Shown in pieces: positions 1,668 to 17,544 of a stretch of DNA of 20,140 nt (position 1 is its first letter; every line of letters starts with the position of its first letter). This stretch comes from a virus, in the IMG/VR virus record IMGVR_UViG_3300010885_044536, positions 1 through 20,140 of that record. One strand, given 5' to 3'. A model generated the notes under the pieces. The model did no database searches and was not told the origin of the DNA. It worked only from the letters and a program-made list of their open reading frames with translations. The position numbers were made by a program, and so were the translations under genes.

Positions 1668-2147
1668 TTAACGGAGGTATTGTTTCGCCGTCTCGGGTGA
1701 CATCACGCATTCCTCAAAATTGTCGGGGCTCATCTCCACCCACTTGATGCAGTGCAGGGCCTTCGCGTGCCGTCTGATCGTGTCCTCGGAGACTCCGATG
1801 TGCTGGGCAAAGTCAGCGACTCGGTAGCAGACGCCCCGCTTGATCTCATGCAGTCTTCGACGGCAATCGGAGCCTTGAGGTTTCTGCGGCATGACGCGCT
1901 TCTGATTTAGTGGGATGGCCTCCAATTCGCCCTGCGTGTCCTCCTGTGGCCCTTTCATCACCTCGCCCGTCATCGACGCCCTCACCTCGGCAACCTCCGC
2001 AGATGTCACCGCAGAGAGGTTTTTCGAGATGTCGTAGTTTGCCGCATTCGGTCGTTTCAAAATGCCTGCCAGAATTCTGTCTCTTTTTGCCTCGTCCATG
2101 ATGTTATCGGTATCCGCCGGGATAGTCGGGAAAGTCGTCGTCGTCAT
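1668..2147 (-). CDS. Putative helix-turn-helix DNA-binding protein
   Basis: This is a 159-residue protein from ATG 2147. A longer reading begins at a TTG at 2174, but the ATG start is preferred; an AAGG lies directly in front of it, too close to be a good ribosome site. Residues about 107-137 (CYRVADFAQHIGVSEDTIRRHAKAL region) look like a helix-turn-helix of the winged or MerR/sigma-like kind. Residues about 21-58 form a second helical segment that could be another DNA-binding or oligomerisation domain. The middle (60-95) is Pro/Gln/Glu-rich and probably a flexible linker. The gene ends 3 nt before the phosphoesterase start, so the pair is likely coupled. It could be a phage regulator, but no target can be named from the sequence. 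Confidence 0.65.
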   Translation of the reverse strand: MTTTTFPTIPADTDNIMDEAKRDRILAGILKRPNAANYDISKNLSAVTSAEVAEVRASMTGEVMKGPQEDTQGELEAIPLNQKRVMPQKPQGSDCRRRLHEIKRGVCYRVADFAQHIGVSEDTIRRHAKALHCIKWVEMSPDNFEECVMSPETAKQYLR

Positions 2148-3337: not shown

Positions 3338-3370
3338 AATTCAAAGAGGCTAACAAGTGGATGCTGGCAA
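3338..3370 (-). promoter_or_regulatory. Leader element L2 (TTGCCA-N9-TGTTAGC-N11-ATG)
   Basis: On the minus strand, TTGCCA (3370-3365), 9 nt, TGTTAGC (3355-3349), 11 nt, then ATG 3337. It is a near copy of L1 at 2435-2466, and similarity extends further upstream (a GGC-AG/TAG-TCCCG segment before TTGCCA). Conservation of both the words and the 9-nt gap in front of two unrelated genes argues for a regulatory function. That is an inference. Confidence 0.5.
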
Positions 3371-3392
3371 CGGCGGGAGCTGCCTGTTTAGT

Positions 3393-3470
3393 TTATTTGG
3401 AGTCCAGCGCCCGCCGCGCCAGATCCTTGTCGATCATCAAAAGCGAACCGAAGATGGCGGATGGGATCAT
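3393..3470 (-). CDS. Possible 25-residue peptide downstream of endolysin
   Basis: The ATG at 3470 overlaps the endolysin TGA by 4 nt (ATGA), the same arrangement that joins holin to endolysin. The frame encodes a hydrophobic start (MIPSAIFGSLLMI) and a charged tail (DKDLARRALDSK), then TAA at 3393. It could be a small membrane-associated lysis accessory peptide, but there is no lipobox cysteine, so a spanin is not supported. The 129-nt stretch 3338-3466 holds only this frame and leader L2. Its tiny size keeps confidence low. Confidence 0.3.
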   Translation of the reverse strand: MIPSAIFGSLLMIDKDLARRALDSK

Positions 3471-4114
3471 GCAAAAAGTCGGATGTGCGACCGGATTAGA
3501 GAGGTTTTCCGCTCTTGGATATAAACGCCACCACCTTCTCGGGATCCGCTTGTCGAGGTATTGCCTTCGACGGTCGTGACCATGCCGTGCTTTTCATCCT
3601 CGATGGCGAGGCCGATGTGGCTAAAGGTGAAGATCACGATGTCCCCGGCCTTGATCTCCTGTTGGGGCTTGTAGAGCTTGACTGTTGGCCCCGCCTCCTC
3701 TTTCGCCCATCGTTCAAAATCCCATGCCCCTGCCGTCTGCGGTCGCGGGAAAGGTAGATCGGCAAGCTTCTCAAGTTCGCGAACTCCCCAGCAAATAAAC
3801 GCCGCGCACCATGCCCAGCCGGAGCCTGGTAGCCAGGTGGCGGATTGGTATTCCTCGACGCGCTTGCCGCGGTTGCTGTTGACAGGTTGCTCGCGGACGC
3901 CCTCCTCGCGTTTGAGGATCCCAACGAGCTTGGCGGCGAGGCTGTTTCCCGGTTGCTCGCCCGCTGCTAGGCTCGCGATGTAGCGTTTATAGGCGTCGAG
4001 CGTCAGGTTGCCGGGATTGCCGTTCGTCGTCCCGTCGTAAAAGCCAACTGCGCGCAGTCCATGCTGGATTAGCACGGCATCAGGTTGCGCGAGGCTTTTG
4101 ATGTCGAGGCTCAT
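3467..4114 (-). CDS. Endolysin with CHAP-type cysteine peptidase domain
   Basis: A 215-residue cell-wall lysis enzyme that would cleave peptide bonds or amides in peptidoglycan at the end of infection. Residues about 60-215 match the CHAP/NlpC-like pattern: catalytic Cys103 in WAWCAAFICWG, His166 in FSHIGLAI, and the polar residue of VEGNT (Glu183 or Asn185). The N-terminal 15-50 (LIQHGLRAVGFYDGTTNG, then LTLDAYKRYI) resembles a shortened peptidoglycan-binding repeat. There is no signal peptide, so release to the wall needs the holin. The start ATG overlaps the holin stop (ATGA at 4111-4114), giving translational coupling. Length is normal for single-domain CHAP endolysins. The domain call is strong; bond specificity is not known. 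Confidence 0.85.
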   Translation of the reverse strand: MSLDIKSLAQPDAVLIQHGLRAVGFYDGTTNGNPGNLTLDAYKRYIASLAAGEQPGNSLAAKLVGILKREEGVREQPVNSNRGKRVEEYQSATWLPGSGWAWCAAFICWGVRELEKLADLPFPRPQTAGAWDFERWAKEEAGPTVKLYKPQQEIKAGDIVIFTFSHIGLAIEDEKHGMVTTVEGNTSTSGSREGGGVYIQERKTSLIRSHIRLFA

Positions 4115-4287
4115 TTTACCCGTTTCCGCTTTTCCAGCGCCGACATAACAATCCCCACAAGCGCGACCGCTGCGCCGATACCGGTCTGGAGATCAGCCTG
4201 CGAGACAATACCGGCTCCGGTTGCGTAGCCGCCTGCGATAGTCAGGCCGTGGCGAAGGAGTAGACCAAGGAGAAGTTTTGTATCCAT
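4111..4287 (-). CDS. Holin-like small membrane protein
   Basis: A 58-residue protein starting at ATG 4287. It has two hydrophobic segments, about residues 4-24 (LLLGLLLRHGLTIAGGYATG) and 35-50 (TGIGAAVALVGIVMSAL), and a basic tail (EKRKRVK), the layout of class II holins. The RHGLTIAGG start and the short loop before GIGAAVALVGI recall the Pam3 gp28-type holin family. It would form membrane lesions that let the endolysin out. The reading frame remains open far upstream, but that part is antisense to the tape measure start. ATG 4287 is chosen because the conserved leader element (GTTTTGT, 13 nt, ATG) ends there. It is the first gene of the minus-strand lysis operon. Confidence 0.75.
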   Translation of the reverse strand: MDTKLLLGLLLRHGLTIAGGYATGAGIVSQADLQTGIGAAVALVGIVMSALEKRKRVK

Positions 4288-4357
4288 GTCGGAGGACTCA
4301 ACAAAACGAACGAAAAACGCAAGTTGAAAATCTCCTTTGTTTTGTAGAGGGGTTTGA
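4288..4357. promoter_or_regulatory. 70-nt divergent promoter-like cassette A
   Basis: This is the whole gap between the divergent holin and tape measure starts. Plus direction: TTGAAA (4324-4329), N9, GTTTTGT (4339-4345), N12, ATG 4358. Minus direction: TTGCGT (4322-4317), N9, GTTTTGT (4307-4301), N13, ATG 4287. The two upstream hexamers are 1 nt apart and the GTTTTGT copies 31 nt apart. Cassette B at 12588-12657 has the same length, spacing and a shared 13-nt core GATTTTCAACTTG (here on the minus strand). No -10 consensus is seen at the normal distance. Promoter or operator function is inferred. Confidence 0.7.
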
Positions 4358-6052
4358 ATGGCCGCAAAAGCAGACCTAAAGACGACGATCTCGGCAGACA
4401 TGACGGGATTCGCTGCGACGATGCGACGAGCTGGAGGGCTGGCTGCAACTACCGGCACTAAGATTGGGCAATCGCTTGGCGGTGCTACCAAGGCCATGGG
4501 GGGCCTCGCTCTGTCTGCTGGCAAGGCGGCAACCGCAATCGCATTAGCCGGGGCCGCTGCTGCGGGAGCAGGTTTTACAGCGGGGCTAAAGGGGGCAGCC
4601 GATTTAGGCGGGAAGATGGCAGACCTCTCTGCGCGAACTGGCATTGCGGCAGGTCAGCTTGCCGTGATGGGAAGAGCGTTTGAAGACAACGGCGTCTCAG
4701 CCGACAAGATCGGCGGCGTGATCAACAAGCTTCAAAAGACAATTACCGATTTTGGGAATGGATCAAAGACTGCGACGAAATTTTTTGAGACGTTAGGCAT
4801 CAAGTTTGAGGACATCGCAAAGCTTGATCCTGGTGCGCAATTTGAACTGATCCAAAGCAAGATCTCCGCGATTCAATCGCCAGCGGAAAGAGCTGCCGTG
4901 GCCATGCAGCTATTCGGAAAGTCCGGCGGCGAGCTTCTGACGCTTTTCGCAGATGGGCAAGCGTTCGCTAATGCTGGCACTTTCCTCGGGACTCAAGCGG
5001 AAATCCTTGATCGCTCCTCTGGCGTGTTCGATTCAATCTCTGACAAGATGGCAAGGATTCCCGAAAAGCTTCAAGGCTTCTTTGTTGGGTTCCTTGAGCC
5101 AATCGCGGGAGACATTGACGCGATCTTGACAAAGTTCGATAATTTCGACTTTGCTGCTCTAGGATTACGAATCGGTAGCGCGTTCAACATGGAAAACATC
5201 ATTTCCATGATTTCGGCATCTGTGCCGCTTCTCGTCGCCGTCTTGGCAGACGCTTTTGCAAAAGCTTTAGAAGTGTTCGGCGCATTGCTTCGGGCATTGT
5301 TTTCACCCGAGGGGCTTTCATTTATGAAAAACATCTTGATCGATGTTTTGGTAGCAGGAGTCGATGCGATTGGCGGCGCGTTTTACGAGTTGGCAAAGAA
5401 CTTTGGAAAAGCCCTAAAGGGCGAGGTAGACATGGTGGATACCACCCGAATTATCGGAGAGGCGAAACCAGAAGAAAAAGCCGCGCCGGATTTTGCCTCA
5501 AGGCTGCAAGAGGAGCTTGCCGGGATTGATTGGGCGCCTTCGCAGGCGGTTAAAGACGCCGCTGATAAATTCGGCGCTGCCTTTGGAAAGACCTTCCCGC
5601 CAGTTGCAAGTGCAGGAGTGCAATCCCCACAATCCGACATCTACGACCGCGAGCTTGCAGAGCAAAGAGCAAGGGTTGCCGCTGATTCTTATAAAGTGCC
5701 GCAGGTCCAAGGAACCTACGGGCCGCCGCGACCTATGGCGGAACAATTCGGCCCTCCAAGATCGCTTATGTCATCGCGCGACGGCAGGCTTTTTGGTGAA
5801 TCCGTGCGGCCATCTAATCGCCTGTTTGGTCAAGCTGGATCGGCACTAGGAGGCGACAACGCCTTTTCGGCGGATCGCGCTCGGCTCGGGATTGCTTCCG
5901 GCCTAACAACTGGAGGACTTGGCGAGAAGCGCCGCCTTCGCACCAGCGCCGACGACAAGGGAGACAAAAAGAACCTCACGCTCCAAGAGAAACAAGTCTC
6001 CTCCCTCGAGTCCATCGAAAGCAAGATCGGCCAAGCCCTCACCGTAAACTGA
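4358..6052 (+). CDS. Tail tape measure protein
   Basis: A 564-residue protein that would set tail length and be packed inside the tail tube. Residues 1-45 are a typical start (DLKTTISADMTGFAATMRRAG). An Ala/Gly-rich hydrophobic stretch follows at about 45-80, and a conserved tape-measure-like region at about 80-210 (ADLGGKMADLSARTGIAAGQ, GGVINKLQKTI, AERAAVAMQLFGKSGGELL). A second hydrophobic segment lies at about 278-315. The C-terminal 190 residues are polar and low-complexity. At roughly 0.15 nm per residue this would predict a tail of about 85 nm, short for a siphovirus. A good ribosome site (AGAGG, 4347-4351) precedes the ATG. It begins the plus-strand tail block. Its chaperone-like genes lie on the opposite strand some 13 kb away, which is unusual. 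Confidence 0.8.
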   Translation: MAAKADLKTTISADMTGFAATMRRAGGLAATTGTKIGQSLGGATKAMGGLALSAGKAATAIALAGAAAAGAGFTAGLKGAADLGGKMADLSARTGIAAGQLAVMGRAFEDNGVSADKIGGVINKLQKTITDFGNGSKTATKFFETLGIKFEDIAKLDPGAQFELIQSKISAIQSPAERAAVAMQLFGKSGGELLTLFADGQAFANAGTFLGTQAEILDRSSGVFDSISDKMARIPEKLQGFFVGFLEPIAGDIDAILTKFDNFDFAALGLRIGSAFNMENIISMISASVPLLVAVLADAFAKALEVFGALLRALFSPEGLSFMKNILIDVLVAGVDAIGGAFYELAKNFGKALKGEVDMVDTTRIIGEAKPEEKAAPDFASRLQEELAGIDWAPSQAVKDAADKFGAAFGKTFPPVASAGVQSPQSDIYDRELAEQRARVAADSYKVPQVQGTYGPPRPMAEQFGPPRSLMSSRDGRLFGESVRPSNRLFGQAGSALGGDNAFSADRARLGIASGLTTGGLGEKRRLRTSADDKGDKKNLTLQEKQVSSLESIESKIGQALTVN

Positions 6053-6053
6053 C

Positions 6054-6662
6054 ATGCCCACCCCAGTAGGAAAAGGAACAACGACATTTCGCGAAGTCTC
6101 CGTGCAAGAGACGGTTTCACGATCCGGCCTCGACGGTTTGACCGTTGTATTACGCGGCATTCATTCGGGCCTCGCGGCGGAAAAAAGGAAATGGAAGCGA
6201 GGGGCATCTTACACAGGTTATTCGAACATGTATTTGGAGACGAAGGATTCCATTGACCGTGGCCCCGTTGCAGAATTGACGTTGAACTTTATCGGCTTCA
6301 TCGACGCAACGAGCGACAATGGCGTCGTTGACATCGAAGACAGCATTACTTCGCAGAGCGTCACGATCAATACCTCTGACGATGAGAACGTCTCTTTTCG
6401 CTACTTCGCTCAGGCAACGACCGTGAGATGGATCTTTCGCGGGAAAGACTTGCCAGTAAGACCGCGATTTCCCGGCATTGTCCCAAGCACCATTCCGACG
6501 AACCTCCTTTTCCAGCCGGATCCTCCGAATTACAAAGGCAGCATTTCGGGCAGGTATAATCCAATCGGGAGGCTCGCTCAATTTACGCGCACGCGATTGG
6601 CCCCCAGCGTCTGGGCCGTTGTCGAATCTTGGGAAAACCTTATCGAGCCTGTATCAGGATGA
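6054..6662 (+). CDS. Probable tail protein following the tape measure, family not recognised
   Basis: A 202-residue frame starting 1 nt after the tape measure stop. I do not recognise the family. The protein looks beta-rich (VTINTSDDENVSFRYFAQAT, VRWIFRGKDLPVRPRFPG) and has a W/R-rich central region, with no membrane segment. In siphovirus genomes the gene after the tape measure usually encodes the distal tail protein or another baseplate component, so a tail-tip role is inferred from position only. Its stop overlaps the next start (ATGA at 6659-6662). Confidence 0.6.
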   Translation: MPTPVGKGTTTFREVSVQETVSRSGLDGLTVVLRGIHSGLAAEKRKWKRGASYTGYSNMYLETKDSIDRGPVAELTLNFIGFIDATSDNGVVDIEDSITSQSVTINTSDDENVSFRYFAQATTVRWIFRGKDLPVRPRFPGIVPSTIPTNLLFQPDPPNYKGSISGRYNPIGRLAQFTRTRLAPSVWAVVESWENLIEPVSG

Positions 6663-7306
6663 TGAAGCGACCAGAGTTTAAATCGGGCAATAAGTGGATG
6701 GTTGAGGCTCTCAACCTTGTGGCCGAATATGCTCAGAGAACGGGCGTCAATCCTGGTGGAAGGCCGGGATGGAATGAGACGGCGCAGGGATGGTTGCCGC
6801 CGAAGGTTGGGGCAGGGGAAGGCTCTGATATTGAATCGGCTTGGGACTTGATCGCTGGCGTAGAGCCAGAAACGTGGAAAGTTCGTGTCGGTACAATTTT
6901 GCGGGGTGACGATTCAGTTTCTGATGCGCTGACATGCTCAAATCCAGAGGACGAATTTACCCTAATCGAAGGCGATATCGTTGCGATCAAAATCGAAAGT
7001 GAAGATCCGACGGAATTTGCAATCGTGACATTTAATTCATGGCCGGAGGATGCTGGCGCAGTAGTATCTTACACTGGGACCGTCGCTGATGGCGACTTTG
7101 AAATGACCGAAAGGCACTACCCTCTCTGGCAGGTTAAGATCGCGCCCGTAAGCGAGCCAAGCGTTGCAGTTGGCGAAGACATCGTCGCTGTCAGGATCGC
7201 GCCGCGCGAGAATCTCGCAATCGTAAAGCGCCTTTACAGGACTGATACTGGAGAGCTTGTGACGCTCCCGTCTTTTGCGGTGTCTCATCGCGCGATCACT
7301 TTATGA
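6659..7306 (+). CDS. Probable tail-tip structural protein, family not recognised
   Basis: A 215-residue protein. The start is ATG 6659 (a second ATG follows at once at 6662), with CAGG upstream and a 4-nt overlap with the previous stop; an in-frame upstream start at 6629 would lie inside the preceding gene. The sequence holds GGRPGW near residue 30 and repeated acidic beta-like stretches (EGDIVAIKIESEDPTEFAIV and GEDIVAVRIAPRENLAIVKR) that resemble each other, hinting at an internal duplication of a beta domain. It sits in the tail block and overlaps the next gene by ATGA. Function is inferred from position. Confidence 0.6.
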   Translation: MMKRPEFKSGNKWMVEALNLVAEYAQRTGVNPGGRPGWNETAQGWLPPKVGAGEGSDIESAWDLIAGVEPETWKVRVGTILRGDDSVSDALTCSNPEDEFTLIEGDIVAIKIESEDPTEFAIVTFNSWPEDAGAVVSYTGTVADGDFEMTERHYPLWQVKIAPVSEPSVAVGEDIVAVRIAPRENLAIVKRLYRTDTGELVTLPSFAVSHRAITL

Positions 7307-8004
7307 GTCACGATTTCCAGCGCGGACTTTTGCCTGTTGGAGCAACCGTTTTGCCGCCCGAGGAGTATGGGTTTTCTGCGTTGCCGTTCCAGCCGACAAT
7401 CAATCACACCGATGCGACCGTCCCGCAATCGCCGAGGAGGGCCATTGAGATACCTGGTGGCGATGATCCGCGAAAAATCCCGCCTTTGATTCTTGCGGTA
7501 TTTTTTGCGTCTGGATGGGATTTTAACATATCGCTCTCTGGGCCGGCTGGTCTTGCGTATACGTGGACGGGAACAATTGCTAGGGGCAGGTCTAAACTAA
7601 TAAACGATGGAGGAGCGACCGAAACAGGAACGCCGCTGACTACAATCAAGCAGGCATGGAGTGCTGGATTCTTTCCGCCATCCATTCTCGCTTTAAGCTA
7701 CCCAGAGCAAAACTGCCGTTGGAATGAGGCTTTGACCACAGACACCCCAGAGCAAATCCTTGATTTCCAGATATCTCCATATGATGTCACCTATTATGCG
7801 ATCCCGAACGTCTGGGCGTTTTCTCCTGATTTCTTCGCTGCCGTCAATGACGGAACTTCCGGTGGAGATCAGGCGACCGTTTCGCACTCTGGCAGCGGAG
7901 AAAACGTATCTGGGCTAACCATTTGCGGAGTCGATTGCAATCTAAATGGCAATGATGTCGTTTCGTTTTTTGGAACGATGACACCCACGGGATTCCTCAC
8001 TTGA
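7303..8004 (+). CDS. Probable tail-tip structural protein, family not recognised
   Basis: A 233-residue frame starting with an ATGA overlap. It is rich in Pro, Gly and aromatic residues with beta-strand character (DFNISLSGPAGLAYTWTG, YDVTYYAIPNVWAFSPDF) and has two cysteines near the C-terminus (CGVDC). There is no signal peptide or membrane segment. It is the last gene of the plus-strand tail block, and its TGA is only 1 nt from the stop of the convergent gene at 8006. No terminator hairpin was seen there. A structural or baseplate role is inferred from neighbours. Confidence 0.6.
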   Translation: MSHDFQRGLLPVGATVLPPEEYGFSALPFQPTINHTDATVPQSPRRAIEIPGGDDPRKIPPLILAVFFASGWDFNISLSGPAGLAYTWTGTIARGRSKLINDGGATETGTPLTTIKQAWSAGFFPPSILALSYPEQNCRWNEALTTDTPEQILDFQISPYDVTYYAIPNVWAFSPDFFAAVNDGTSGGDQATVSHSGSGENVSGLTICGVDCNLNGNDVVSFFGTMTPTGFLT

Positions 8005-8005
8005 A

Positions 8006-8308
8006 TCATTTACTCGCTTGGCCGAGAAACTCAAAACCATCCTCCGTGGTTTCTCTCGCTGAGATATGCTCCTTGCGAATCTTCTCAACATCGGGAATCT
8101 GGATTTGAGCGTTAAGCCTCGCGAATTTGTCCCAGCTCTCGCGCTCCATGTTATAGCTCCAAGACTGCTCGACTGCGCGACTCAAGCGAGTGAAGGCAAC
8201 CGCAGCCCTCCATGAGGAGACGCAAGCAGCCGCAAGCAACACGATGGCTGCGGTCACAATAGGGTTGACCTTTAGCGCGTTTGCGAGGGACATGGCGGCG
8301 TCTTTCAT
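8006..8308 (-). CDS. Small single-TM phage protein
   Basis: A 100-residue protein from ATG 8308, 2 nt after the stop of the fibre gene upstream; a longer frame exists to 8350 but would overlap that gene. Residues about 14-34 form one membrane segment (NPIVTAAIVLLAAACV), followed by a charged helical domain (RLSRAVEQSW, IPDVEKIRKEHISARE). One TM followed by a helical soluble domain is also the layout of inner-membrane spanins and some holin accessory proteins, but position behind tail-fibre genes does not settle this. Unknown function. Confidence 0.55.
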   Translation of the reverse strand: MKDAAMSLANALKVNPIVTAAIVLLAAACVSSWRAAVAFTRLSRAVEQSWSYNMERESWDKFARLNAQIQIPDVEKIRKEHISARETTEDGFEFLGQASK

Positions 8309-8310
8309 GG

Positions 8311-9837
8311 TTAGGAAATGACGCGCCAAGTGTTTTCGGCAGATCGCCACAAGTGAATGGTTCTTGCTGTGTGCGTGATAGTGAAACTGCCAGAAGAATC
8401 GCCAGCATAAATCAACGTGACGCCAGATCCAGGTTCAACCGTAATGCTTCCACTTGATTTGCGATTGGCCAGCCAGAAATGGCTATCGCTTAGCCAACTG
8501 GAATCTGCTTGCGGTGCAATTGTAACGGTAGTCGTGGATCCGGTTAGCTCCACATACTTTCCGTTATGCAAAGACTCCACAATCGTGTCGTTAGAAGATA
8601 TCGTCGCCACCGCAGACGGAAGCCCACCGATTGAACTTGATGCCGAAAGGACTCCCGAGGAAAACGTTAGATTTGATCCAATCGAAATCTCCTGCACCGC
8701 CCCTGTGCTCGCAGTCGTGCGCCCGAGAAGTCGAGCCGTTGCCATGGTGAGGCCGCTCGACGTAATCGCTCCCGCAGCTAGGTAATCAGTCCCAGCGGTT
8801 GCAGCAGACAAGACGCCGCTGGTGAGTTTCGCGAGTCCTGTAGTCGTTGCGCGTTTCAGTTGCTTGCCATCAGTGCCGTTAAACAGGACTACCTCGTTTG
8901 CAACGGAAGACGCAAGCCCTTTCGTTGATTCAAGGGCTGCGATGGCTTGTTTCACGCGCTGTGGCGTAAACGTGCGTTGAGACGTTGATGTGCCAGCTTC
9001 CGCCTCCGCTTGGCTAACTTCGGCAGGCAAGAGCAAAGTTGCGTCTACGGCGATTAGGTTCCAGATTTTTGCGTTGGTCGTGCCGTTGTAATCATCTGGA
9101 CGAATGACATTCGGCGAGGATTCGGCAGTTGTCCCGGCATCGAGACGATAGGTTCTCAGCACGTTGGGGGAGGCGTCTTGATCAACAAATTGAACGAGCT
9201 TGCCAACGGTCACCGCCACGGTCGGAACCGCATCAAGGTCTGCGGCAGTGCCTCCGATTTTGCTGGTCGTAGTTGCCAAATATTCCGCAGCCGATGCCTT
9301 TAGAAGGTATTGGGTCGGATCTCCTGCATTTGTCGGCGTGGCTTCACCACCGGACAGAATATCGTGATAAATGGTATACTCCACCGGATCGACCGAGCTG
9401 CGGAATCCGCCAGACCCTCCAAGCTGGTAGGTCAGTTCAAGGCTGCAAGCTAGGCTCGCGATGTCGTTCGCAGCATTTGCGTCATTTCGTCCGAGAGCCG
9501 TGTTTACTTCGGTCGTGTTAAGATCAAGAAACCCAGTATAAGTAAAGGAGCCTGCGTCGTTCGTCCACGTTTGGTTTGATGCCAGCAAAACGCCATCGGA
9601 ATAATCGCCCTCTTCCTTGATGCCGATCTTGATTACAGTGCCGCCAGCTAGATTTTCCGGCGTCCAAGTCGGCGCTTCGACAATCGACGTTGCCGCCGTC
9701 GGGTCTGAGCTTCGCCCAAAGATGAGCTTCACCTCGGTCGCACCATCTCCGGCTTTTCCGGCCAAACCGGTAATTACAGAATCTTGCCCAGGTGCGGCAA
9801 CAAGGCGATCAACGCGGAGGTCGTAGAAGAGTTTCAT
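8311..9837 (-). CDS. Tail fibre-type structural protein
   Basis: A 508-residue protein rich in Thr, Ser, Gly and Ala, with low Cys, typical of trimeric phage fibres. The N-terminal 150 residues look like a compact beta domain that could dock on the baseplate. The middle contains VSQAEAEAGTSTSQRTFTPQ (about 275-294), a motif common before fibre shafts, where RTFTPQRVKQAI is frequent. The shaft includes SAATAGTDYLAAGAI, whose AGTDY motif recurs in the 777-residue fibre upstream. The C-terminus ends in small beta strands (ITHTARTIHLWRSAENTWRV), probably the receptor or tip domain. Its ATG overlaps the preceding stop (ATGA at 9834-9837). Receptor unknown. Confidence 0.7.
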   Translation of the reverse strand: MKLFYDLRVDRLVAAPGQDSVITGLAGKAGDGATEVKLIFGRSSDPTAATSIVEAPTWTPENLAGGTVIKIGIKEEGDYSDGVLLASNQTWTNDAGSFTYTGFLDLNTTEVNTALGRNDANAANDIASLACSLELTYQLGGSGGFRSSVDPVEYTIYHDILSGGEATPTNAGDPTQYLLKASAAEYLATTTSKIGGTAADLDAVPTVAVTVGKLVQFVDQDASPNVLRTYRLDAGTTAESSPNVIRPDDYNGTTNAKIWNLIAVDATLLLPAEVSQAEAEAGTSTSQRTFTPQRVKQAIAALESTKGLASSVANEVVLFNGTDGKQLKRATTTGLAKLTSGVLSAATAGTDYLAAGAITSSGLTMATARLLGRTTASTGAVQEISIGSNLTFSSGVLSASSSIGGLPSAVATISSNDTIVESLHNGKYVELTGSTTTVTIAPQADSSWLSDSHFWLANRKSSGSITVEPGSGVTLIYAGDSSGSFTITHTARTIHLWRSAENTWRVIS

Positions 9838-10250
9838 GCTGTGAGATTTTCGATGCCTGCTTTCATGGCCGTTTTGGTTGCGGAGAAGACGATGACTTGT
9901 TCTGCGGTGTAAGAGGTTGGCGCTTCCGCGTATTCGATCATGGCGATTGCGGCCTCATCATCGCCCTCGTCGAGGAGCGTGTTGGCGACTTCAAACTTTT
10001 CGCGAAAAGGGCCGCGAATGTAAGCGGGGAGTGCTTGCCATGCGCCGTAAAGAGCGGAACGCCCTGCCGCCCGTGCGTCAATGACTGCTTGTTGATCTGC
10101 GATGATCGCCTCCGCGAGCGAGCGTTGCGCCTCGATCTCTTCAATCGTGGGGACCGGGCCGCCGTCTCCTGCGGTGATGATATCACCATCAACGGTCCAG
10201 CCACCGCGATTGGGAAAAGCAAAAACAAGAATTTCTGGGATCGAGATCAT
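9834..10250 (-). CDS. Small acidic protein between fibre genes, possible fibre assembly factor
   Basis: A 138-residue acidic protein. The N-terminus is beta-like with GGWTVDGDIITAGDG, followed by a long helix (TIEEIEAQRSLAEAIIADQQ, about 35-55) and a helical domain with WQALPAYIRGPFREKF (about 71-86). It starts 3 nt after the stop of the 777-residue fibre gene and overlaps the next fibre gene by 4 nt. Small proteins in this position are often tail-fibre assembly chaperones or short tail components. That role is inferred from position only; I do not recognise the family. Confidence 0.55.
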   Translation of the reverse strand: MISIPEILVFAFPNRGGWTVDGDIITAGDGGPVPTIEEIEAQRSLAEAIIADQQAVIDARAAGRSALYGAWQALPAYIRGPFREKFEVANTLLDEGDDEAAIAMIEYAEAPTSYTAEQVIVFSATKTAMKAGIENLTA

Positions 10251-10253
10251 AGA

Positions 10254-12587
10254 TTAGGAGATGCGATGGACCCGCATAGTCAATCCTTTAAGAAAAGTAA
10301 TGCTTGTGCCAGAATTTTCGGAGGCTGCGCGAAATTGAACGGTCCCCGCATTGACGCCGTTTATCAGGGTTAAAGTCACCCGAATCGGGAGTGCATCGGT
10401 CGATCCGTCCGCTTGGGTCAGAGTAGTAGCGAACGCAGTCGCCGCTGCTACTGTTCGGCCAGTATTAACAGCGTTCCAGTGCTCAAGGGTATACCGGACG
10501 TGGTCTGGGCTAGACGGTCCAGTAAAAGCGATTTGTAGACCAGACCCAGCAGCGCCACCGACACGGAAACCTACGATCTCGATGAGCACACTCTCGCCAG
10601 CCACGACAGAACAAGAAAGACCAGTGACGTTACTCAGGACTCCGCTACTATTAAAAAAATCGTCAACCCGCATGTAATGCTCAGGGGCGGCACGTAAGCC
10701 AAGTGTTCCAATCGCTGCCTCCACGGTAGAGGCTCCGTAAGATACCGTGCCTGATGGAATGTTAGCGTAAAACAAATCGTTTGTTATGCAGCCTTGAAGA
10801 AAGGAAAGATTTTCTGCATAGGAGTTCGGCAGATCAGACCAGTAAAACTGAGGATCATTAGGCGTGCCTCCCGTTGCGCCCTGCGCCCCCTGACTTCCCA
10901 GCCCTCCTCCGCCGTTTACCCCCGGCGGGCCACCCTGCCCACCTACACCGCCGACATTTGAATAGGAAGAAATAAAACAATTATATGCAACAAAATCGGG
11001 CGCTTCACCGCCAGCCCCACCCGCGCTTCCGTCACCACTTTGATATTCACTGCCTCCTTCCTGCCCTTGCGACCCATTTCCTCCAGTCCCTCCAGAAAGA
11101 GCAAGTGTGAAATCAACACTTTTATCTGATGAGAGTTTAAGTCCTATTGGGTTAGACCCGGGCGAACCTGGATATAAATAGTCACCCGAAGGCGTACCGG
11201 TTGATCCTGTCCATGTGATGGAAAGCGTAGTTCGTTCTTTCCCCAACCCCCTAACAAAAACATTTTCAAAGCTGCCTCCGCCACTTGGGACATCTGTAGT
11301 GTGAGAAATTGAAAAACTTCCCGCGCCCAATTCGAAAATTCTCGCCCCAAGATTCCACGCCGCTTGTGCGGTTGCATACGGCTTTGAGGGATCGCCGATA
11401 GTTCCGGTTGTATCGTTACCACCAGTGCGAACGTAAGCAAAGCCAGTTCCGGTGATGGACGATCCGCCCCCCGCAGGAGTCGCGAAGGAAGGGGCCAGTG
11501 ACGCTCCGTTGCTCTTTAGAAAAGTCCCGTCCGCACCAAGGGCAAGCTCGACAATCTGTCCGCTGGCATTGGAATGAAAAACCTTCCAGTTTCCGGCGGT
11601 GTGATCTGAGGTCGAAGTGATGGCGTGACTGCGGTCGTGGAAGCGCGAGTCGTTGCCCTGCGCAAATTGACCCGCTGACGTTCCGAATGCGCCCACCTCG
11701 AGGACGCCGCTGGTTCCGGTTTTGATTGGGAGGCCCGAAGTTGACCCAATGGCTCCAGCGTTTGAAATGCTGCCGTGGGTGTGACTTGTCGGAGTCCTTG
11801 CATCGCTGAAGCGAGAGTCATTCCCTTGAGCAAATTGCCCAGCCGACGTTCCGAATGCGCCAACCTCAAGGACTCCGCTGGTTCCGGTTTTAATCGGGAG
11901 TCCAGCGGTCGAGCCGATTGCGCCAGTGTTGGAAATCCCACCGTGAACGTGGCTTGTGGGCGTCCTTGCGTCGGTTAATCGGGAATCGTTTGTGGCCACG
12001 TAATCGGTCCCGGCAACGGCAACCTCTAGCGTATTGCTTGCGGCCTTCAGAATGCCCGAAAGGCCGCTGGTGACGGTGTTGGTGGTAAGCGTCGGCTCAG
12101 CGGCCCCGAGGACGGAAATCGATGCTGATATCGCGCCACTGTTGATGGCTACGTCGATGCTTGGCGATTCGACAATAGCGGAAGACTCAGCGATGTCAGA
12201 ACCGGGCTCCACCCAATCAAGTTGGCCTTGCAGTCGAAGTAAGATGTCACTGCCTTCGGTCGCGGAGATGTCCACCCAGTATTCGGTTTGCAGATGCGCT
12301 TGGACATCTTCTAGGGTCCATCCATAGGCAAACGCCGGGACGGTCGCAGCATCGGTTGCGATGTTGAGCGTGATCACCTGCCCCGCTACGGTGAGATTCG
12401 ACTCACCGGAATCAGTCCCGAAAATTCGCCGAATCGTGCCCGATCTTGCACGCATTCCAAAGGCCACGAATTTGCCCGTCATAGAAAACTCCGCGCCAAT
12501 CGAAAGCGTGAGCCGGAAAGGAGCGCCCTGAGGGAAATAGAATTTGGGCAGATCGGCGACGCCGGAAATGACGGGGAAGTCAGGCAT
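10254..12587 (-). CDS. Large tail fibre / baseplate upper protein with repeats and Gly-rich region
   Basis: A 777-residue protein. Residues 1-130 look like a BppU-like N-terminal beta domain (PVISGVADLPKFYFPQGAPF, then RSGTIRRIFGTDSG). Residues 200-311 are two tandem 56-residue units beginning NDSR, each with DARTPTSH(V/T)HG and TSGVLEVGAFGTSAGQFAQG, and a third unit begins at 312. From about 384 (YVRTGGNDTTGTIGDPSKPY) the pattern suits a right-handed beta-helix. It is followed by a Gly-rich collagen-like part (about 498-590). A C-terminal beta domain would be the tip. It is the first gene of the minus-strand fibre block, starting at cassette B. Likely host recognition; receptor unknown. Confidence 0.75.
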   Translation of the reverse strand: MPDFPVISGVADLPKFYFPQGAPFRLTLSIGAEFSMTGKFVAFGMRARSGTIRRIFGTDSGESNLTVAGQVITLNIATDAATVPAFAYGWTLEDVQAHLQTEYWVDISATEGSDILLRLQGQLDWVEPGSDIAESSAIVESPSIDVAINSGAISASISVLGAAEPTLTTNTVTSGLSGILKAASNTLEVAVAGTDYVATNDSRLTDARTPTSHVHGGISNTGAIGSTAGLPIKTGTSGVLEVGAFGTSAGQFAQGNDSRFSDARTPTSHTHGSISNAGAIGSTSGLPIKTGTSGVLEVGAFGTSAGQFAQGNDSRFHDRSHAITSTSDHTAGNWKVFHSNASGQIVELALGADGTFLKSNGASLAPSFATPAGGGSSITGTGFAYVRTGGNDTTGTIGDPSKPYATAQAAWNLGARIFELGAGSFSISHTTDVPSGGGSFENVFVRGLGKERTTLSITWTGSTGTPSGDYLYPGSPGSNPIGLKLSSDKSVDFTLALSGGTGGNGSQGQEGGSEYQSGDGSAGGAGGEAPDFVAYNCFISSYSNVGGVGGQGGPPGVNGGGGLGSQGAQGATGGTPNDPQFYWSDLPNSYAENLSFLQGCITNDLFYANIPSGTVSYGASTVEAAIGTLGLRAAPEHYMRVDDFFNSSGVLSNVTGLSCSVVAGESVLIEIVGFRVGGAAGSGLQIAFTGPSSPDHVRYTLEHWNAVNTGRTVAAATAFATTLTQADGSTDALPIRVTLTLINGVNAGTVQFRAASENSGTSITFLKGLTMRVHRIS
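11655..11990 (-). repeat. Two tandem 168-nt coding repeats in the fibre gene
   Basis: Two 168-nt units encode 56-residue repeats (residues 200-255 and 256-311) starting NDSR. They share long stretches of protein sequence, such as TSGVLEVGAFGTSAGQFAQG, but differ at many third positions in the DNA. Divergence at silent sites means the duplication is not recent and the protein repeat is under selection. The unit restarts at residue 312 and then diverges. Confidence 0.8.
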
Positions 12588-12657
12588 GTCGATGACTGCA
12601 CAAAACGAACGGGATTTTCAACTTGATTTTGCGCGGCGTTTTGTCGAGGCGTCCGAC
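12588..12657. promoter_or_regulatory. 70-nt divergent promoter-like cassette B
   Basis: This is the gap between the fibre gene (ATG 12587, minus) and the gene at 12658 (plus). Plus direction: TTGATT (12623-12628), N9, GTTTTGT (12638-12644), N13, ATG 12658. Minus direction: TTGAAA (12621-12616), N9, GTTTTGT (12606-12600), N12, ATG 12587. The hexamers are 1 nt apart and the heptamers 31 nt apart, as in cassette A, with which it shares the 13-nt core GATTTTCAACTTG. Relative to A the cassette is inverted. The outer arms ACAAAACG and CGTTTTGT form an 8-bp inverted repeat. Function is inferred from repetition and placement. Confidence 0.7.
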
Positions 12658-13629
12658 ATGCTCAAATTGCGCTATGACGACAAGGGACAGGTGCGGGGAT
12701 TGCCTGACGCGATTCGCCCCGGCGACAGCCTGAGCGTCGAGCTGATCGCGGATCATTTGGAGATTAGCAGCAGCGATACGTTGAGCCTTTCCCTTGCGCT
12801 CGAAAAGCCCGTTGCAATTGCTTCCGGCGATTGGTCGATCACCTGGGGCGCTTCCACCGTCGAGCTTCCCGCTGCCGGGATTGACGCGCATTTGCTGGGC
12901 CTCGCGCTGAATCGCCTATCTGCCATCGTTTCCGCTGGTGGTGTCGATGTTACGGGAAAAGATGGCCTTTTTACCGTCACTTTCCGCAGCAATGGAGCGA
13001 GAGCAGACTTCACGATTGCCCATTCGGCCTTCGGAACGATGACGAATCGTGCGCTCACCTTGATCGCTGGCGGTGCTTCTAACGTCGAGACGGTCGAGAT
13101 CGACCTGACGCTCCAGACGCTCGTGGCGGTGACGAGCGCGGCCAACATTAGCGAGGCTGCGGTCACGGTGGCGAACATCGCAACAGGAACTGTCTCAATC
13201 GCTCAAAACGATAGGATCACCATTTCAAGGATGCCGGATGCTGGCAAGTTTCAGATTCGGACCGCGAACGACGCGGCGACAATGTGGCTTTCAGCGAATG
13301 TTTCGACTTATCAGATTCAAGCGGCACTCGATGACATCGAACCGGGGGAATTCCTGGTGACGCGAAATGCGACCGGAGAGACGATCAAGGTTGAAATCAA
13401 ACGTGCCGCCGTTGGAGTCAATCCGGCCATCACAGTTTCCGAGACCTTTATCGGCCCAATCGGCGTTACGATGACGCTCGACACTTCCAAAGTGCTGCGA
13501 TTGCTCGACGCGGCTAGCGTGGCGCTTCCAACTGCGGCGCTTCTGACCTTCTCTCGCGGAACGGAAACGCAATTTTCGCAACTGGTCACACTGGCTCCGG
13601 CATTGTTGAGCCACGGCCAGCCTGTTTGA
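12658..13629 (+). CDS. Probable structural protein, family not recognised
   Basis: A 323-residue protein from ATG 12658. The frame is open further upstream (ATG at 12586, encoding about 24 more residues), but the upstream part coincides with cassette B, so the later start is preferred. The sequence is Ala/Thr/Val-rich and beta-like, with repeated strand patterns (DSLSVELIADHLEISSSDTL, SVALPTAALLTFSRGTETQF). The opening RPGDSLSVELI followed by SDTLSLSLAL resembles N-terminal domains of fibre or baseplate proteins, and could be a smaller relative of the fibre gene across the cassette. It begins the plus-strand packaging block, 11 nt before TerL. Function unknown. Confidence 0.6.
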   Translation: MLKLRYDDKGQVRGLPDAIRPGDSLSVELIADHLEISSSDTLSLSLALEKPVAIASGDWSITWGASTVELPAAGIDAHLLGLALNRLSAIVSAGGVDVTGKDGLFTVTFRSNGARADFTIAHSAFGTMTNRALTLIAGGASNVETVEIDLTLQTLVAVTSAANISEAAVTVANIATGTVSIAQNDRITISRMPDAGKFQIRTANDAATMWLSANVSTYQIQAALDDIEPGEFLVTRNATGETIKVEIKRAAVGVNPAITVSETFIGPIGVTMTLDTSKVLRLLDAASVALPTAALLTFSRGTETQFSQLVTLAPALLSHGQPV

Positions 13630-13640
13630 GGGCTTGAAAC

Positions 13641-15524
13641 ATGAATGAGGCGGCACTTGATCGGTATTACCGGGGGACTCTTCGGCACTTAGAGCGTGCA
13701 TTCCGATTCCAGCGCACTATGACCGCGCCAGAATGGTCCGAGAAGGTCCGACGCATGGAGGGCGGAAGGCGCTTCCGCTTTGATTTCGCCCCGTATCAGC
13801 GCGAGATGATGGAAGCGCCCTACGATCCGCGCGTGCAGATGACGGTTTACATGCTCGCCAGCCGGATGGGCAAAACGGAGGTGGTGATGAACCAGATCGG
13901 CCACAGCATAGCCGAGGCTCCTCGCCGCGTTTTGGTAATGTATCCCACGATTAGCCAGACCGAAAAGTGGAGCAAGGAGACGTTGATGGGCGAGCTGGTC
14001 AATCCGACGCCCGATCTAGCTTCGCTGATCGGCGATGATTCTGGCCGGCGCAAAAGCGGGAACACGATTTTGCACAAGCTTTTCCCTGGTGGCTTGGTCA
14101 ATGCCTTCGGGTCAAACGCTCCAGGTGAGATGCGGAGAGCAAAGGGAAACTTCCTTTTCGCCGACGAGATCGACGCCATCGAATCGACGGAATCAGATGA
14201 AGGTGACCCTCTTGAGATCTTCTGGGTCCGAGGTTCCGAATATGCGGACACAATCAAGATTGCTGCCAGCTATCCAAGCGTCAAAGGCAAGAGCAAGATC
14301 GAGGCGCTGATGCTCCAATCTGATTGGCGAGTTTGGATCGCGCCCTGCCCTCATTGCGCAAAGGAGTTTGTCCTGCACCGCCGCCAGCTCAAATATGATT
14401 GCGACAAGCCCGAGGACGCGTGGATTGAATGCCCCGAGAGCGAGTGTCGAATCACTGATGCGGAGCGCATGGAGATGATACGCAATGGCAGATGGCAGGC
14501 CACGCGGCCATTTAACGGCATCGCAGGGTTCCACGGTTCGCGGATGATGTCGCCGCATCCTCCCCAAAAGGGATTCGCGAGTCATCTCCATTGGGCTGCG
14601 GTCGAGGAGCTTAAGATCGAGGCGGCAGACAATCGCGAGAAGGCGAAGCGCGTTTTGATTAATACGTTCGACGCGGAAACCTATCAAGCCCCCGAGGAGG
14701 AGATGCCGGATCCGGTCGGCCTTGCTCAGGAGGCTTACGATTATTTGGACCGCGTCACTGAAAACCAGTTCAAGATTCCCGCTGGCGTGCTTGTCGTTAC
14801 TGGAGGCTGCGACGTTCAAGGCGACCGCCTAGAGTTTGAGTTTGTCGGCCATGGCATCAACGGCCAGACATGGGGGCTTGGGTATCACATTTTGAGCGGG
14901 GGCACGATGGAGCCGGAAGTGTGGCAGAAGCTGGACGCTCTGCTTCAGACTGAGTTCCTTCACCCGTGCGGCAAGGTTCTGCGAGTCGCCTCCGTTTTTA
15001 TCGACTCTAAATACCGGCAGGCCCAAGTGCTAGCCTTTACCAAGGTGCGACAAGCTCGAGGCGTCTTCGCCATCTTCGGCTCGACCGTCCTAGGCAAGCC
15101 GATTGTCTCGCAGCCTAAGAGGGAAAAGCGCGGGACATTCTTTGAGATCGGCACGCACGAATGCAAATCGATGATTTATCAGAACGCGGCCCTGCGCCAA
15201 GATCGCAAATCTTCCATCTATCCGCATAATTACATGCATTTCCCCAGCGGCCATGGTTATACGCCGGAATATTTCCAGCGCCTCTTGATCGAGAAGGTGA
15301 CGCTGAAGAAAGGACAAGATGGGAGCTTCTACGAGTTCTTCGACAAGAAGGACAAGCGCGACCGGAACGAACCGCTCGACGTTCGCGTCTACAACATCGC
15401 CGCAGCCAAAAAGCTCGACATCGCCTTTGCCACGATTGCCAAGAAATATGCCGAATATGCGGCCAAGAACGTGCCTGATCGAGGTAAAGAGCGGGAATAT
15501 ACACTCGATTTCGTAGCCGATTAA
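13641..15524 (+). CDS. terL: Phage terminase large subunit, GpA family
   Basis: A 627-residue packaging motor and nuclease that cuts concatemers and pumps DNA into the prohead. The ATPase part has Walker A in ASRMGKTE (residues 73-80) and Walker B in FLFADE (171-176). A four-cysteine zinc ribbon follows (CPHC at 236-239 and C264, C269), characteristic of the lambda GpA family. The nuclease domain begins at about 380, with Asp391 in GGCDVQGDRLEFE as a likely metal ligand. Length is normal for the family. The start has GAGGG 8 nt upstream. It is followed by a hairpin terminator-like structure and the gpW-like gene, the lambda gene order A-W-B. The small subunit is not adjacent: it lies on the opposite strand beyond the portal. 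Confidence 0.93.
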   Translation: MNEAALDRYYRGTLRHLERAFRFQRTMTAPEWSEKVRRMEGGRRFRFDFAPYQREMMEAPYDPRVQMTVYMLASRMGKTEVVMNQIGHSIAEAPRRVLVMYPTISQTEKWSKETLMGELVNPTPDLASLIGDDSGRRKSGNTILHKLFPGGLVNAFGSNAPGEMRRAKGNFLFADEIDAIESTESDEGDPLEIFWVRGSEYADTIKIAASYPSVKGKSKIEALMLQSDWRVWIAPCPHCAKEFVLHRRQLKYDCDKPEDAWIECPESECRITDAERMEMIRNGRWQATRPFNGIAGFHGSRMMSPHPPQKGFASHLHWAAVEELKIEAADNREKAKRVLINTFDAETYQAPEEEMPDPVGLAQEAYDYLDRVTENQFKIPAGVLVVTGGCDVQGDRLEFEFVGHGINGQTWGLGYHILSGGTMEPEVWQKLDALLQTEFLHPCGKVLRVASVFIDSKYRQAQVLAFTKVRQARGVFAIFGSTVLGKPIVSQPKREKRGTFFEIGTHECKSMIYQNAALRQDRKSSIYPHNYMHFPSGHGYTPEYFQRLLIEKVTLKKGQDGSFYEFFDKKDKRDRNEPLDVRVYNIAAAKKLDIAFATIAKKYAEYAAKNVPDRGKEREYTLDFVAD

Positions 15525-15527
15525 CCA

Positions 15528-15556
15528 AAAGCCCTTGAAATTGGGCTTTGTTTTGT
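15528..15556 (+). terminator. Hairpin terminator-like structure after terL
   Basis: Three nt after the TerL stop codon there is a 7-bp perfect stem, AAAGCCC (15528-15534) and GGGCTTT (15543-15549), with an 8-nt loop and then GTTTTGT. This has the shape of a weak intrinsic terminator, although the T tract is interrupted. It overlaps the promoter-like element in front of the next gene, so one sequence may end one transcript and start another. Confidence 0.5.
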
Positions 15557-15568
15557 CGAGGCATCGGC
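15535..15568 (+). promoter_or_regulatory. Promoter-like element C before gpW-like gene
   Basis: TTGAAA (15535-15540), N9, GTTTTGT (15550-15556), N12, ATG 15569. This is the fifth copy of the element in cassettes A and B, with exact 9-nt spacing and a shared GTCGAGGC before the start codon. Unlike the others it lies between two genes of the same strand. The hexamer falls in the loop of the hairpin at 15528-15549. Confidence 0.6.
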
Positions 15569-16105
15569 ATGGCAGCTTTACCCTCCCGCGCATTCTGCGG
15601 CGAATCGTTGGAATTTACCGCAACTGTAACGTCAGGCGCTACGGGATCAGCTCATTTTCGCAGCATTGACACGGGCGAGGTTGTCACGGTTCCGCTGTCA
15701 GTGTCAGGGGCAACGGCAACCGCGACCTATCCGCCGGAAAAGACGGCCAACCTGCCGGCAGGAATCTACGTCGTTGCCTTAACGCTTGAGGTGGCCGGGA
15801 TTCGGTCGGTTGAGTCTATCGGCAACATCACGCTTCAAGCGCCGCCGGATCGCTCCCCACTGCCAAGCCATGCGCGAAAGATGGTCAAGGCTTTGGAAGC
15901 ACACCTTGAGGGCCGAATTAGCGATGACGAAGGCCGAGGGCTTGAGACTTACACCGTCGGAGGCGTGCCGATTACCAAGATTTCCTTGATGGACGCTCGC
16001 GAGCTTTTGACCAAATACCGACGCGACCTCGACACTGAGATTGCCAAGGCTCGCGCTGATGCAGGGCTTTCCAACGGTCGAACCATTTACTCCCGCTTTG
16101 AATGA
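15569..16105 (+). CDS. gpW-like head-tail joining protein with N-terminal Ig-like domain
   Basis: A 178-residue protein from ATG 15569 (a TTG at 15548 is in frame but lies within the regulatory element). Residues about 8-90 form a beta-rich Ig-like domain (ESLEFTATVTSG, ATATYPPEKTANLPAGIY, VVALTLEVAG). Residues about 103-157 match the gpW pattern: MVKALEAHLEGRI, then a variable turn, TYTVGGVPITKISLMDARELL and a closing helix. gpW (68 residues in lambda) finishes the head after packaging so that the tail can attach. Position between terminase and portal is as in lambda. The added Ig-like domain is unusual; such domains on phage particles often bind surface sugars. Stop overlaps the portal start (ATGA). 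Confidence 0.65.
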   Translation: MAALPSRAFCGESLEFTATVTSGATGSAHFRSIDTGEVVTVPLSVSGATATATYPPEKTANLPAGIYVVALTLEVAGIRSVESIGNITLQAPPDRSPLPSHARKMVKALEAHLEGRISDDEGRGLETYTVGGVPITKISLMDARELLTKYRRDLDTEIAKARADAGLSNGRTIYSRFE

Positions 16106-17544
16106 AACCACTCCTTTACGGTCCCAACAACAAGCCAATTCGCACGCGCAATTTTGACGCGGCAAAAGGCACGCGATACACGAACGACTGGGTCGCAGGA
16201 ACAGGCCCAGCGGATAACGCGATCAAACAGGACGCCAAGTCTTTGCGCGACCGTGCGCGGGATTCTGAGCGCAACGACGGCTACATCGAGGGCGCGTTGA
16301 TGGCCTTGGAGTCCAACGTGATCGGCCAGCATGGGATTCGCATGAAATCGCTCGCCCGTCGAGCAGATGCGAGGAGCAAAAAGGGCTTGTCGAACAGCGC
16401 CGACAACAACGCGAGAGCTAAGGTCGAGGAGGCTTGGGAGGATTTCTCACGCCGTGGCAATTTCGATGTCACCCGCCAGTTCTCACGCGCTGCTTTTGAG
16501 CGTCTCGCCTTGCGGTCTGCCGTTCGCGATGGTGGATTCTTGACGCGCACCATTGAAGGCTTTCCGAAAAACGATTTCCGCTTTGCCGCGCAAGGCATCG
16601 AGATCGACGCGCTCGATCCGCACCACCGGAACGATGCCGCCCGTATTTACATGGGCGTTGAGTTTGATGAATGGGACGAGCCCATTCGGTATCATCTTCG
16701 CAAAATGGACCCGAAGAGCGGTCGCTACACGCGCGAAACGTTCGCCGTTGGGTCAGATAACATGATCCATACGTTTTTGGCTCGTCGGATCAATCAGAGC
16801 CAAGGCTATTCTTGGCTTGCCAATGCCCTCCTTCGCCTTCGGCATCTTGCCAAATTCGAAGAAGCCGAGGTAATCGCCGCCCGTATCAGTGCCAACAAGC
16901 TTGGCTTTTTCAAACAGACCGGAGAAGCGCAATACACTGGCGATGAGGACGACGACGGGAAAGCCATTGCACCTTCTGCACCTGGCACGTTTGAGACGCT
17001 TCCCCACGGCGTCGAGGCCCAGATGATTGACCCAGCGCATCCGAATAGTGCGATGCCGGACTTTCGTAAAGCCATTCTGCGCGGAGTCAGCCCCGGCATC
17101 TACGTCAATTACAACACATGGGCGCAAGACTTGGAAGGCGTGTCTTATTCGTCGATCCGGCAGGGCGTCCTGTCAGAGCGCGACATTTACAAAATCCTTC
17201 ACTCGTGGTTCATCGACACTTTCGAGATTCCGCTTTTCGAGCGTTGGCTACGAATGGCGCTCTTGATGGGCAGGATTGAAGGCTATACCCTCCTCGACTT
17301 TGACCGCCTCTCCCATGTCGAGTTCTCCGGCAGGACTTGGACTTGGGTTGATCCGGTCGGCGACATCGAGGCCATCGAGCGGGAAATCGCTCTTTCGCTT
17401 AATTCTCGCGAGCGTGCGGCCAAGGATCGCGGCTTGAACATCGACAAGATCATTGCGGAGAACGAGCAGGACAATGCCAAGCTTCAAGCGGCAGGGTTGC
17501 CAACGGCTGTTGGGAAATCGGCTGGCGTCGAAGTTCCTAGCTAG
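16102..17544 (+). CDS. Phage portal protein, lambda GpB family, ending at an amber codon
   Basis: A 480-residue portal up to TAG 17542-17544. It forms the dodecameric ring at one head vertex through which DNA enters and leaves. Family features include the N-terminal segment SLRDRARDSERNDGYIEGAL (about 47-66) with SNVIGQHG, a central wing and stem region, and GVSPGIYVNYNTWAQDLEGV followed by SYSSIRQGVL (about 329-358), the usual GpB-family signature around the tunnel. The start overlaps the gpW-like stop. Sequence typical of the portal C-terminus continues in the same frame after the TAG (next entry), so the gene as read is either truncated by a nonsense mutation or read through. Without the extension it still has the full core fold. 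Confidence 0.88.
   Translation: MKPLLYGPNNKPIRTRNFDAAKGTRYTNDWVAGTGPADNAIKQDAKSLRDRARDSERNDGYIEGALMALESNVIGQHGIRMKSLARRADARSKKGLSNSADNNARAKVEEAWEDFSRRGNFDVTRQFSRAAFERLALRSAVRDGGFLTRTIEGFPKNDFRFAAQGIEIDALDPHHRNDAARIYMGVEFDEWDEPIRYHLRKMDPKSGRYTRETFAVGSDNMIHTFLARRINQSQGYSWLANALLRLRHLAKFEEAEVIAARISANKLGFFKQTGEAQYTGDEDDDGKAIAPSAPGTFETLPHGVEAQMIDPAHPNSAMPDFRKAILRGVSPGIYVNYNTWAQDLEGVSYSSIRQGVLSERDIYKILHSWFIDTFEIPLFERWLRMALLMGRIEGYTLLDFDRLSHVEFSGRTWTWVDPVGDIEAIEREIALSLNSRERAAKDRGLNIDKIIAENEQDNAKLQAAGLPTAVGKSAGVEVPS

Follow-up and report, generated by a model that had tools for sequence, protein, structure and literature searches.

Gene blocks and a two-part element in the window

The window analyzed here, 20,140 bases long, is an entire IMG/VR record and represents 20 kb of a lambda-like siphovirus of roughly 35 kb. 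Its genes form the set expected of such a phage, with a GpA terminase, portal, tape measure, holin, CHAP endolysin and tail fibre, and are arranged in blocks on both strands (Table 1). Some features of individual genes were noted in passing. The metallophosphoesterase gene (177-1166, minus strand) carries an intein-like insertion of 330 residues, located exactly between GNHE and CRVERW, where ten relatives read GNHEDRVERW and are insertion-free. The first residue of the insertion is C and its last is an N before C; a Pfam search of the insertion gave no intein domain at threshold. The tail-fibre-like gene contains two tandem 168-nt repeats that are 79% identical (11635-11970). Two small genes on the minus strand share a near-identical sequence before the ATG, CCGTTGCCA...CTTGTTAGCCTCTT(T)GAATT (2435-2470 and 3338-3375), which was not seen in the relatives checked.

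A preliminary description of this DNA had located five copies of TTG-N12-GTTTTGT upstream of genes, and all five are exact matches, in position as well as in strand. A third-order Markov model of the window predicts a mean of 0.059 exact matches, and the maximum among 1000 simulated runs was 2. The end of the second box lies 12 or 13 nt from the ATG, as had been claimed. The spacing had been given as a hexamer followed by nine nucleotides; it is constant when counted as TTG-N12, but the hexamer itself is not a unit, since only TTG is invariant and the three bases after it, where a TTGACA-like -35 hexamer would have ACA, differ between sites. Similarly, GTTTTGT is invariant in the five copies of the window but not in relatives, in which its first base is G or A, and we therefore use the consensus TTG-N12-RTTTTGT (R = G or A). 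The box is mostly followed by NGA. Numbering from the first T of TTG, further positions conserved across unrelated sites are T at 8, a pyrimidine at 15, GA at 24-25, C at 28 and T at 30. In the divergent pairs the two copies form a back-to-back palindrome, CAA-N-TTG.

Table 1. Genes, copies of the element and a hairpin in the window, with two further sites known from relatives. Fractions are distinct upstream sequences that contain the element.
Feature	Position	Strand	Remarks
Conserved protein with helix-turn-helix-like segments, candidate DNA-binding	1668..2096	-	A- block
CHAP endolysin	3467..4114	-	A- block
Holin (Pfam Phage_holin_10)	4111..4287	-	First gene of A- block
Element A-, TTGCGTTTTTCGTTCGTTTTGT	4301..4322	-	Upstream of holin gene; 16/16; TTG to ATG 35 nt in all 16
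Element A+, TTGAAAATCTCCTTTGTTTTGT	4324..4345	+	Upstream of tape-measure gene; 15/15; TTG to ATG 34-36 nt
Tape-measure protein	4358..6052	+	First gene of A+ block
Tail-fibre-like protein	10254..12587	-	First gene of B- block
Element B-, TTGAAAATCCCGTTCGTTTTGT	12600..12621	-	Upstream of tail-fibre-like gene; 18/20, exceptions the diverged L043 and L125
Element B+, TTGATTTTGCGCGGCGTTTTGT	12623..12644	+	Upstream of 323-aa gene and terminase; 16/19, exceptions L011 (N10 spacer), L043 and L125
323-aa protein, function not assigned	12658..13629	+	First gene of B+ block
Terminase large subunit (GpA family)	13641..15524	+	B+ block
Terminator-like hairpin, AAAGCCC-TTGAAATT-GGGCTTT	15528..15549	+	Right after terminase stop; overlaps element C
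Element C, TTGAAATTGGGCTTTGTTTTGT	15535..15556	+	Upstream of head-tail joining gene; 24/25, exception L125
Head-tail joining protein	15569..16105	+	First gene behind element C
Portal protein (lambda family)	16102..17544	+	Behind element C
Site D (sixth)	outside window, in relatives		Before capsid-protease gene (capsid operon)
Site E (seventh)	outside window, in relatives		Before replisome-organizer-like gene and DnaB (replication operon)

Conservation of the element in related phages

A terminase search of viral contigs returned 43 loci, nearly all of them 91-100% identical; a first terminase scan of the genome collection had found no such relatives among its contigs. The exact pattern is present in 10 of 11 larger related records, mostly in five or six copies each, and these copies lie at the sites homologous to A+, A-, B+, B- and C and at two extra sites, D and E. 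The preliminary description had proposed that hits in related phages should lie upstream of operons instead of being randomly spread. Consistent with this, the matches in the eleven records occur at homologous operon starts and are not random, and a reversed control pattern gave zero matches in the same records, which together support a cis-acting element acting at the level of the promoter. Every gene block examined was preceded by the two-part signal in the correct orientation. For recT and similar early genes we found neither an element of their own nor an evident host promoter. Among the larger records, G003 (34.6 kb) is probably nearly complete, as judged from its circular permutation relative to G006 and G002. 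The long records G002 and G007 each include a second phage carrying a separate GpA terminase, probably as a result of chimeric assembly, so that only their family parts count for the element; the regions concerned are 1-28 kb of G002 (L049, L050) and 1-43 kb of G007 (L053, L054), with junctions near the tail-fibre gene. No copy of the element was found in the second phage joined in G002.

To avoid selecting for the motif, we collected the upstream sequences of seven genes by protein homology alone. TTG-N12-RTTTTGT was present in 103 of the 109 distinct sequences; the six exceptions are the B+ site of L011, two sites of L043 and three of L125. In per-gene alignments TTG was invariant and the seven-base box was 96-100% conserved, with averages of 75-98% for the spacer and 82-94% for the 12 bases downstream of the box. 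Within the family, the box begins with either G or A, even inside a single genome. A coordinated G-to-A change was considered, as G007/L035 has A at all three sites that it holds, and was rejected; L022, L033 and L034 mix both bases, and we therefore do not claim co-evolution of the box. A weight matrix derived from the sites A+, A-, B+, B- and C recovered the held-out sites D (20-24 bits) and E (12-19 bits). Other matches scored below 4 bits, except for single unconserved ones of 13.6 (G006), 9.5 (G002) and 5.2 bits (G007). Occurrence of the element in unrelated phages was also considered and rejected, the non-family matches being chance-like among the viral-contig matches listed. Text searches of the literature did not find a description of the motif.

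The preliminary description had reported the absence of a sigma-70 -10 box, and this was borne out, as no sigma-70-type promoter was found at the element sites. No TATAAT-like hexamer lies 16-18 nt downstream at main-family sites, L043 being the exception, and sigma-70-type matches across the window are no commoner than in shuffled sequences. In L043, a diverged relative with a terminase 73% identical, the B+ site reads TTGCAA-N16-TATAAT-CCGGCC-ATG with TTG 34 nt before the ATG, and its B- site is weaker than this. In L125 (terminase 69% identical) TTG-N12 occurs at three sites with the second boxes TTTTTGT, TTGTTGC and TTTTTGC, and L313 has the same sequence as L125 at C. Judged from their spacing, these diverged relatives indicate that TTG occupies the -35 register and that the start codon may be +1 or close to it. 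A pyrimidine-purine step at positions 15-16 was considered as the transcript start and rejected, as it is absent from L125.

Start-codon distance, ribosome-site matches and hairpins

Six unrelated sites (A+, A-, B+, B-, C and D) have TTG 34-36 nt before the ATG; at E the distance is 60 nt, and the GA and the C after the box are retained there. The narrow 34-36 nt range is only suggestive of a leaderless start, taken as one about 5 nt or less from the start codon; leaderless mRNA at the fixed-spacing sites is plausible. This reading competes with the Shine-Dalgarno-like matches of four or more bases found before the ATG in 34 of 75 distinct element sites. Among 13 sampled window genes that lie behind no element, the Shine-Dalgarno match was shorter than three bases in 8, three bases in 4 and four bases in only one, the terminase gene; most sampled operon-internal genes start without such a sequence (for example those at 6054, 7303 and 16102 on the plus strand). 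With so few Shine-Dalgarno sequences at sampled genes, a ribosome-binding role is the less likely one for the GAGG or GAG-C after the box, and the conserved GAG-C more likely belongs to the DNA signal.

The alternative that the box is a translation or mRNA-leader signal, aiding ribosome binding with GGAGG as the Shine-Dalgarno sequence, draws on those same 34 sites; nonetheless, a match of at least four bases is missing at most C and all D sites, the element at E lies 60 nt from the ATG, and the invariant TTG at -35 would have no role. Retention of GA at E, together with internal genes that mostly lack Shine-Dalgarno sequences, makes a DNA element the more likely explanation, and we consider a translation signal very improbable.

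The terminator-like hairpin that overlaps element C lies in a segment (15519-15557) with a fold energy of -11.3 kcal/mol, and a similar hairpin precedes E in G003. Hairpins at these places fit with new transcription units beginning there; the one at C could also partly explain the T-rich box of that site. Between the element and the replisome gene, the E leader contains the conserved sequence GTAACG-CTTCAC-CGTTAC-AGTAAC (about 10834-10875 in L056, and in homologues), which could be a leader hairpin or an operator.

Candidate readers and interpretation of the element

We searched 13 family records for proteins that may recognize the element. No single-subunit phage RNA polymerase (PF00940) was found in them, while the T7 positive control was detected. 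Sigma region 2 likewise gave no match in the 13 records, with the caveat that these may be incomplete and that the search would overlook a strongly diverged sigma factor. A weak match to sigma region 4 was rejected, as it belongs to an Xre-type protein that is absent from several members. Two conserved proteins are candidate phage regulators. One is the candidate DNA-binding protein of the A- block (142-160 aa in the family), whose AlphaFold model was unusable (pLDDT 45). The other is a 118-aa protein encoded upstream of D, with a low-confidence model (pLDDT 53) whose matches to winged-helix regulators had E-values of 0.04 or worse. A host search by terminase in genome contigs gave only relatives of 26-34% identity from unrelated phyla, and phage collections gave distant matches only; Akkermansia phages were rejected as possible relatives because their genome plan differs.

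The element would belong to an already known kind of signal, the phage-specific promoter set, as in phages phiEco32 and 7-11, for which the sigma factor gene is known and the promoter motifs are TAATGTATA or TGATGT-like (PMC4331800). In both cases low-copy, well-conserved short motifs before phage gene clusters emerged from intergenic comparison, and a motif of this description, by which phage-encoded-sigma promoters are recognized, is what we find before the gene blocks here; unlike those promoters, the present motif is two-part, and sigma region 2 was not found in the 13 records. Single-subunit RNA polymerase promoters of the T7 and Xp10 kind are comparable in that one compact signal is repeated before blocks of one genome, but they depend on a polymerase of a type not found in the 13 family records. 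The T4 middle (MotA), P2 Ogr, Mu C and GIL01 late promoters are similar in that a phage protein stands in for, or assists, one of the two usual sigma contacts. These activator-dependent promoters keep a usable -10 and have the -35 replaced or supplemented, whereas the present element has kept the -35-like TTG and lacks the -10. The Bacteroidota promoter (TTTG ... TAnnTTTG) also combines TTG with a box ending in TTTG; compared with it, the element's spacing is several nucleotides too short and no TA is present at the start of the box. Finally, a housekeeping sigma-70 promoter with a leaderless start would have TTG at the same 34-36 nt before the ATG, as in the TTGCAA-N16-TATAAT site of L043, but the main family has RTTTTGT-NGA in place of a TATAAT-like hexamer. 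What sets it apart as a new variant is the sequence itself, the lack of a -10 box and a start-codon distance that is almost constant.

Three readings had been offered for the element, namely a phage-specific promoter, an operator and the site of an unusual host sigma factor. What they share, a cis-acting element at promoter level, is upheld, the comparative data giving good support to such an element in common to the family's operons. Among the three, we consider it probable that the element is the shared promoter of an uncultured family of lambda-like siphoviruses, composed of a -35-like TTG and a box that replaces the -10; the most likely reading is that the element acts as the promoter proper, with a phage protein as its reader. 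In an operator, the two boxes would bind a phage activator or repressor beside or over a weak host promoter without fixed sequence. Boxes 17-18 bp apart would suit a protein touching DNA at two places, and both the palindrome of the divergent pairs and the conserved candidate DNA-binding proteins (that of the A- block, and the 118-aa protein with its weak winged-helix model) are in keeping with this. However, no separate promoter was found within the intergenic regions of roughly 70 nt, and the nearly fixed distance to the ATG suits a promoter better than an upstream operator, so we regard an operator as unlikely, with the reservation that the distinction is partly semantic if initiation needs the regulator.

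A promoter for an unusual or alternative host sigma factor, borrowed by the phage, appears more doubtful still. All examined blocks use the element, including the replication operon, as would be expected if the host enzyme alone read it from the start of infection, and no phage sigma factor was found in the 13 records. On the other hand, the TATAAT site of L043 argues weakly against an unusual host housekeeping sigma factor, although the L043 host may differ, and the element is absent from the second phage of G002, whose host may also be another one; to our knowledge, the spacing of the element matches no sigma factor. Chance, an assembly artefact or a recent duplication of one sequence is an explanation we give practically no weight. 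The A and B regions do resemble each other, forming a 61-nt inverted repeat of 77%, but spacers differ between sites while boxes do not, and the element is conserved in dozens of independent contigs; its conservation across upstream sequences collected independently of the motif already contradicts such an origin.

On the preferred reading, a promoter read by a phage protein, RNA polymerase would contact TTG as a -35-like element, and, counting the start codon as +1, RTTTTGT and its GA tail would take the place of the usual -10 box at about -20 to -11. RTTTTGT-GA would be read by a dedicated factor, for which a phage protein is the likelier candidate than a sigma factor of the host. With less assurance, transcripts at the six fixed-spacing sites may begin at or within a few bases of the ATG and thus be leaderless or nearly so, and the replication operon may carry a leader of about 25 nt, with a hairpin at its start. 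The full combination, a new promoter class with the -35 kept, RTTTTGT-NGA in place of the -10, a phage-encoded initiation factor and leaderless mRNAs for most structural operons, is a tentative proposal that we think has a minor chance of being correct as a whole.

For an uncultured phage family, the element defines a regulon by sequence, and it offers a concrete target in the search for its recognizer. If the factor is phage-encoded and independent of a -10 box, this would be an unusual redirection of bacterial RNA polymerase, with a small orthogonal promoter set. Furthermore, L043 with its TATAAT site and L125 with its drifted box allow the evolution of promoter specificity to be compared at a single locus.
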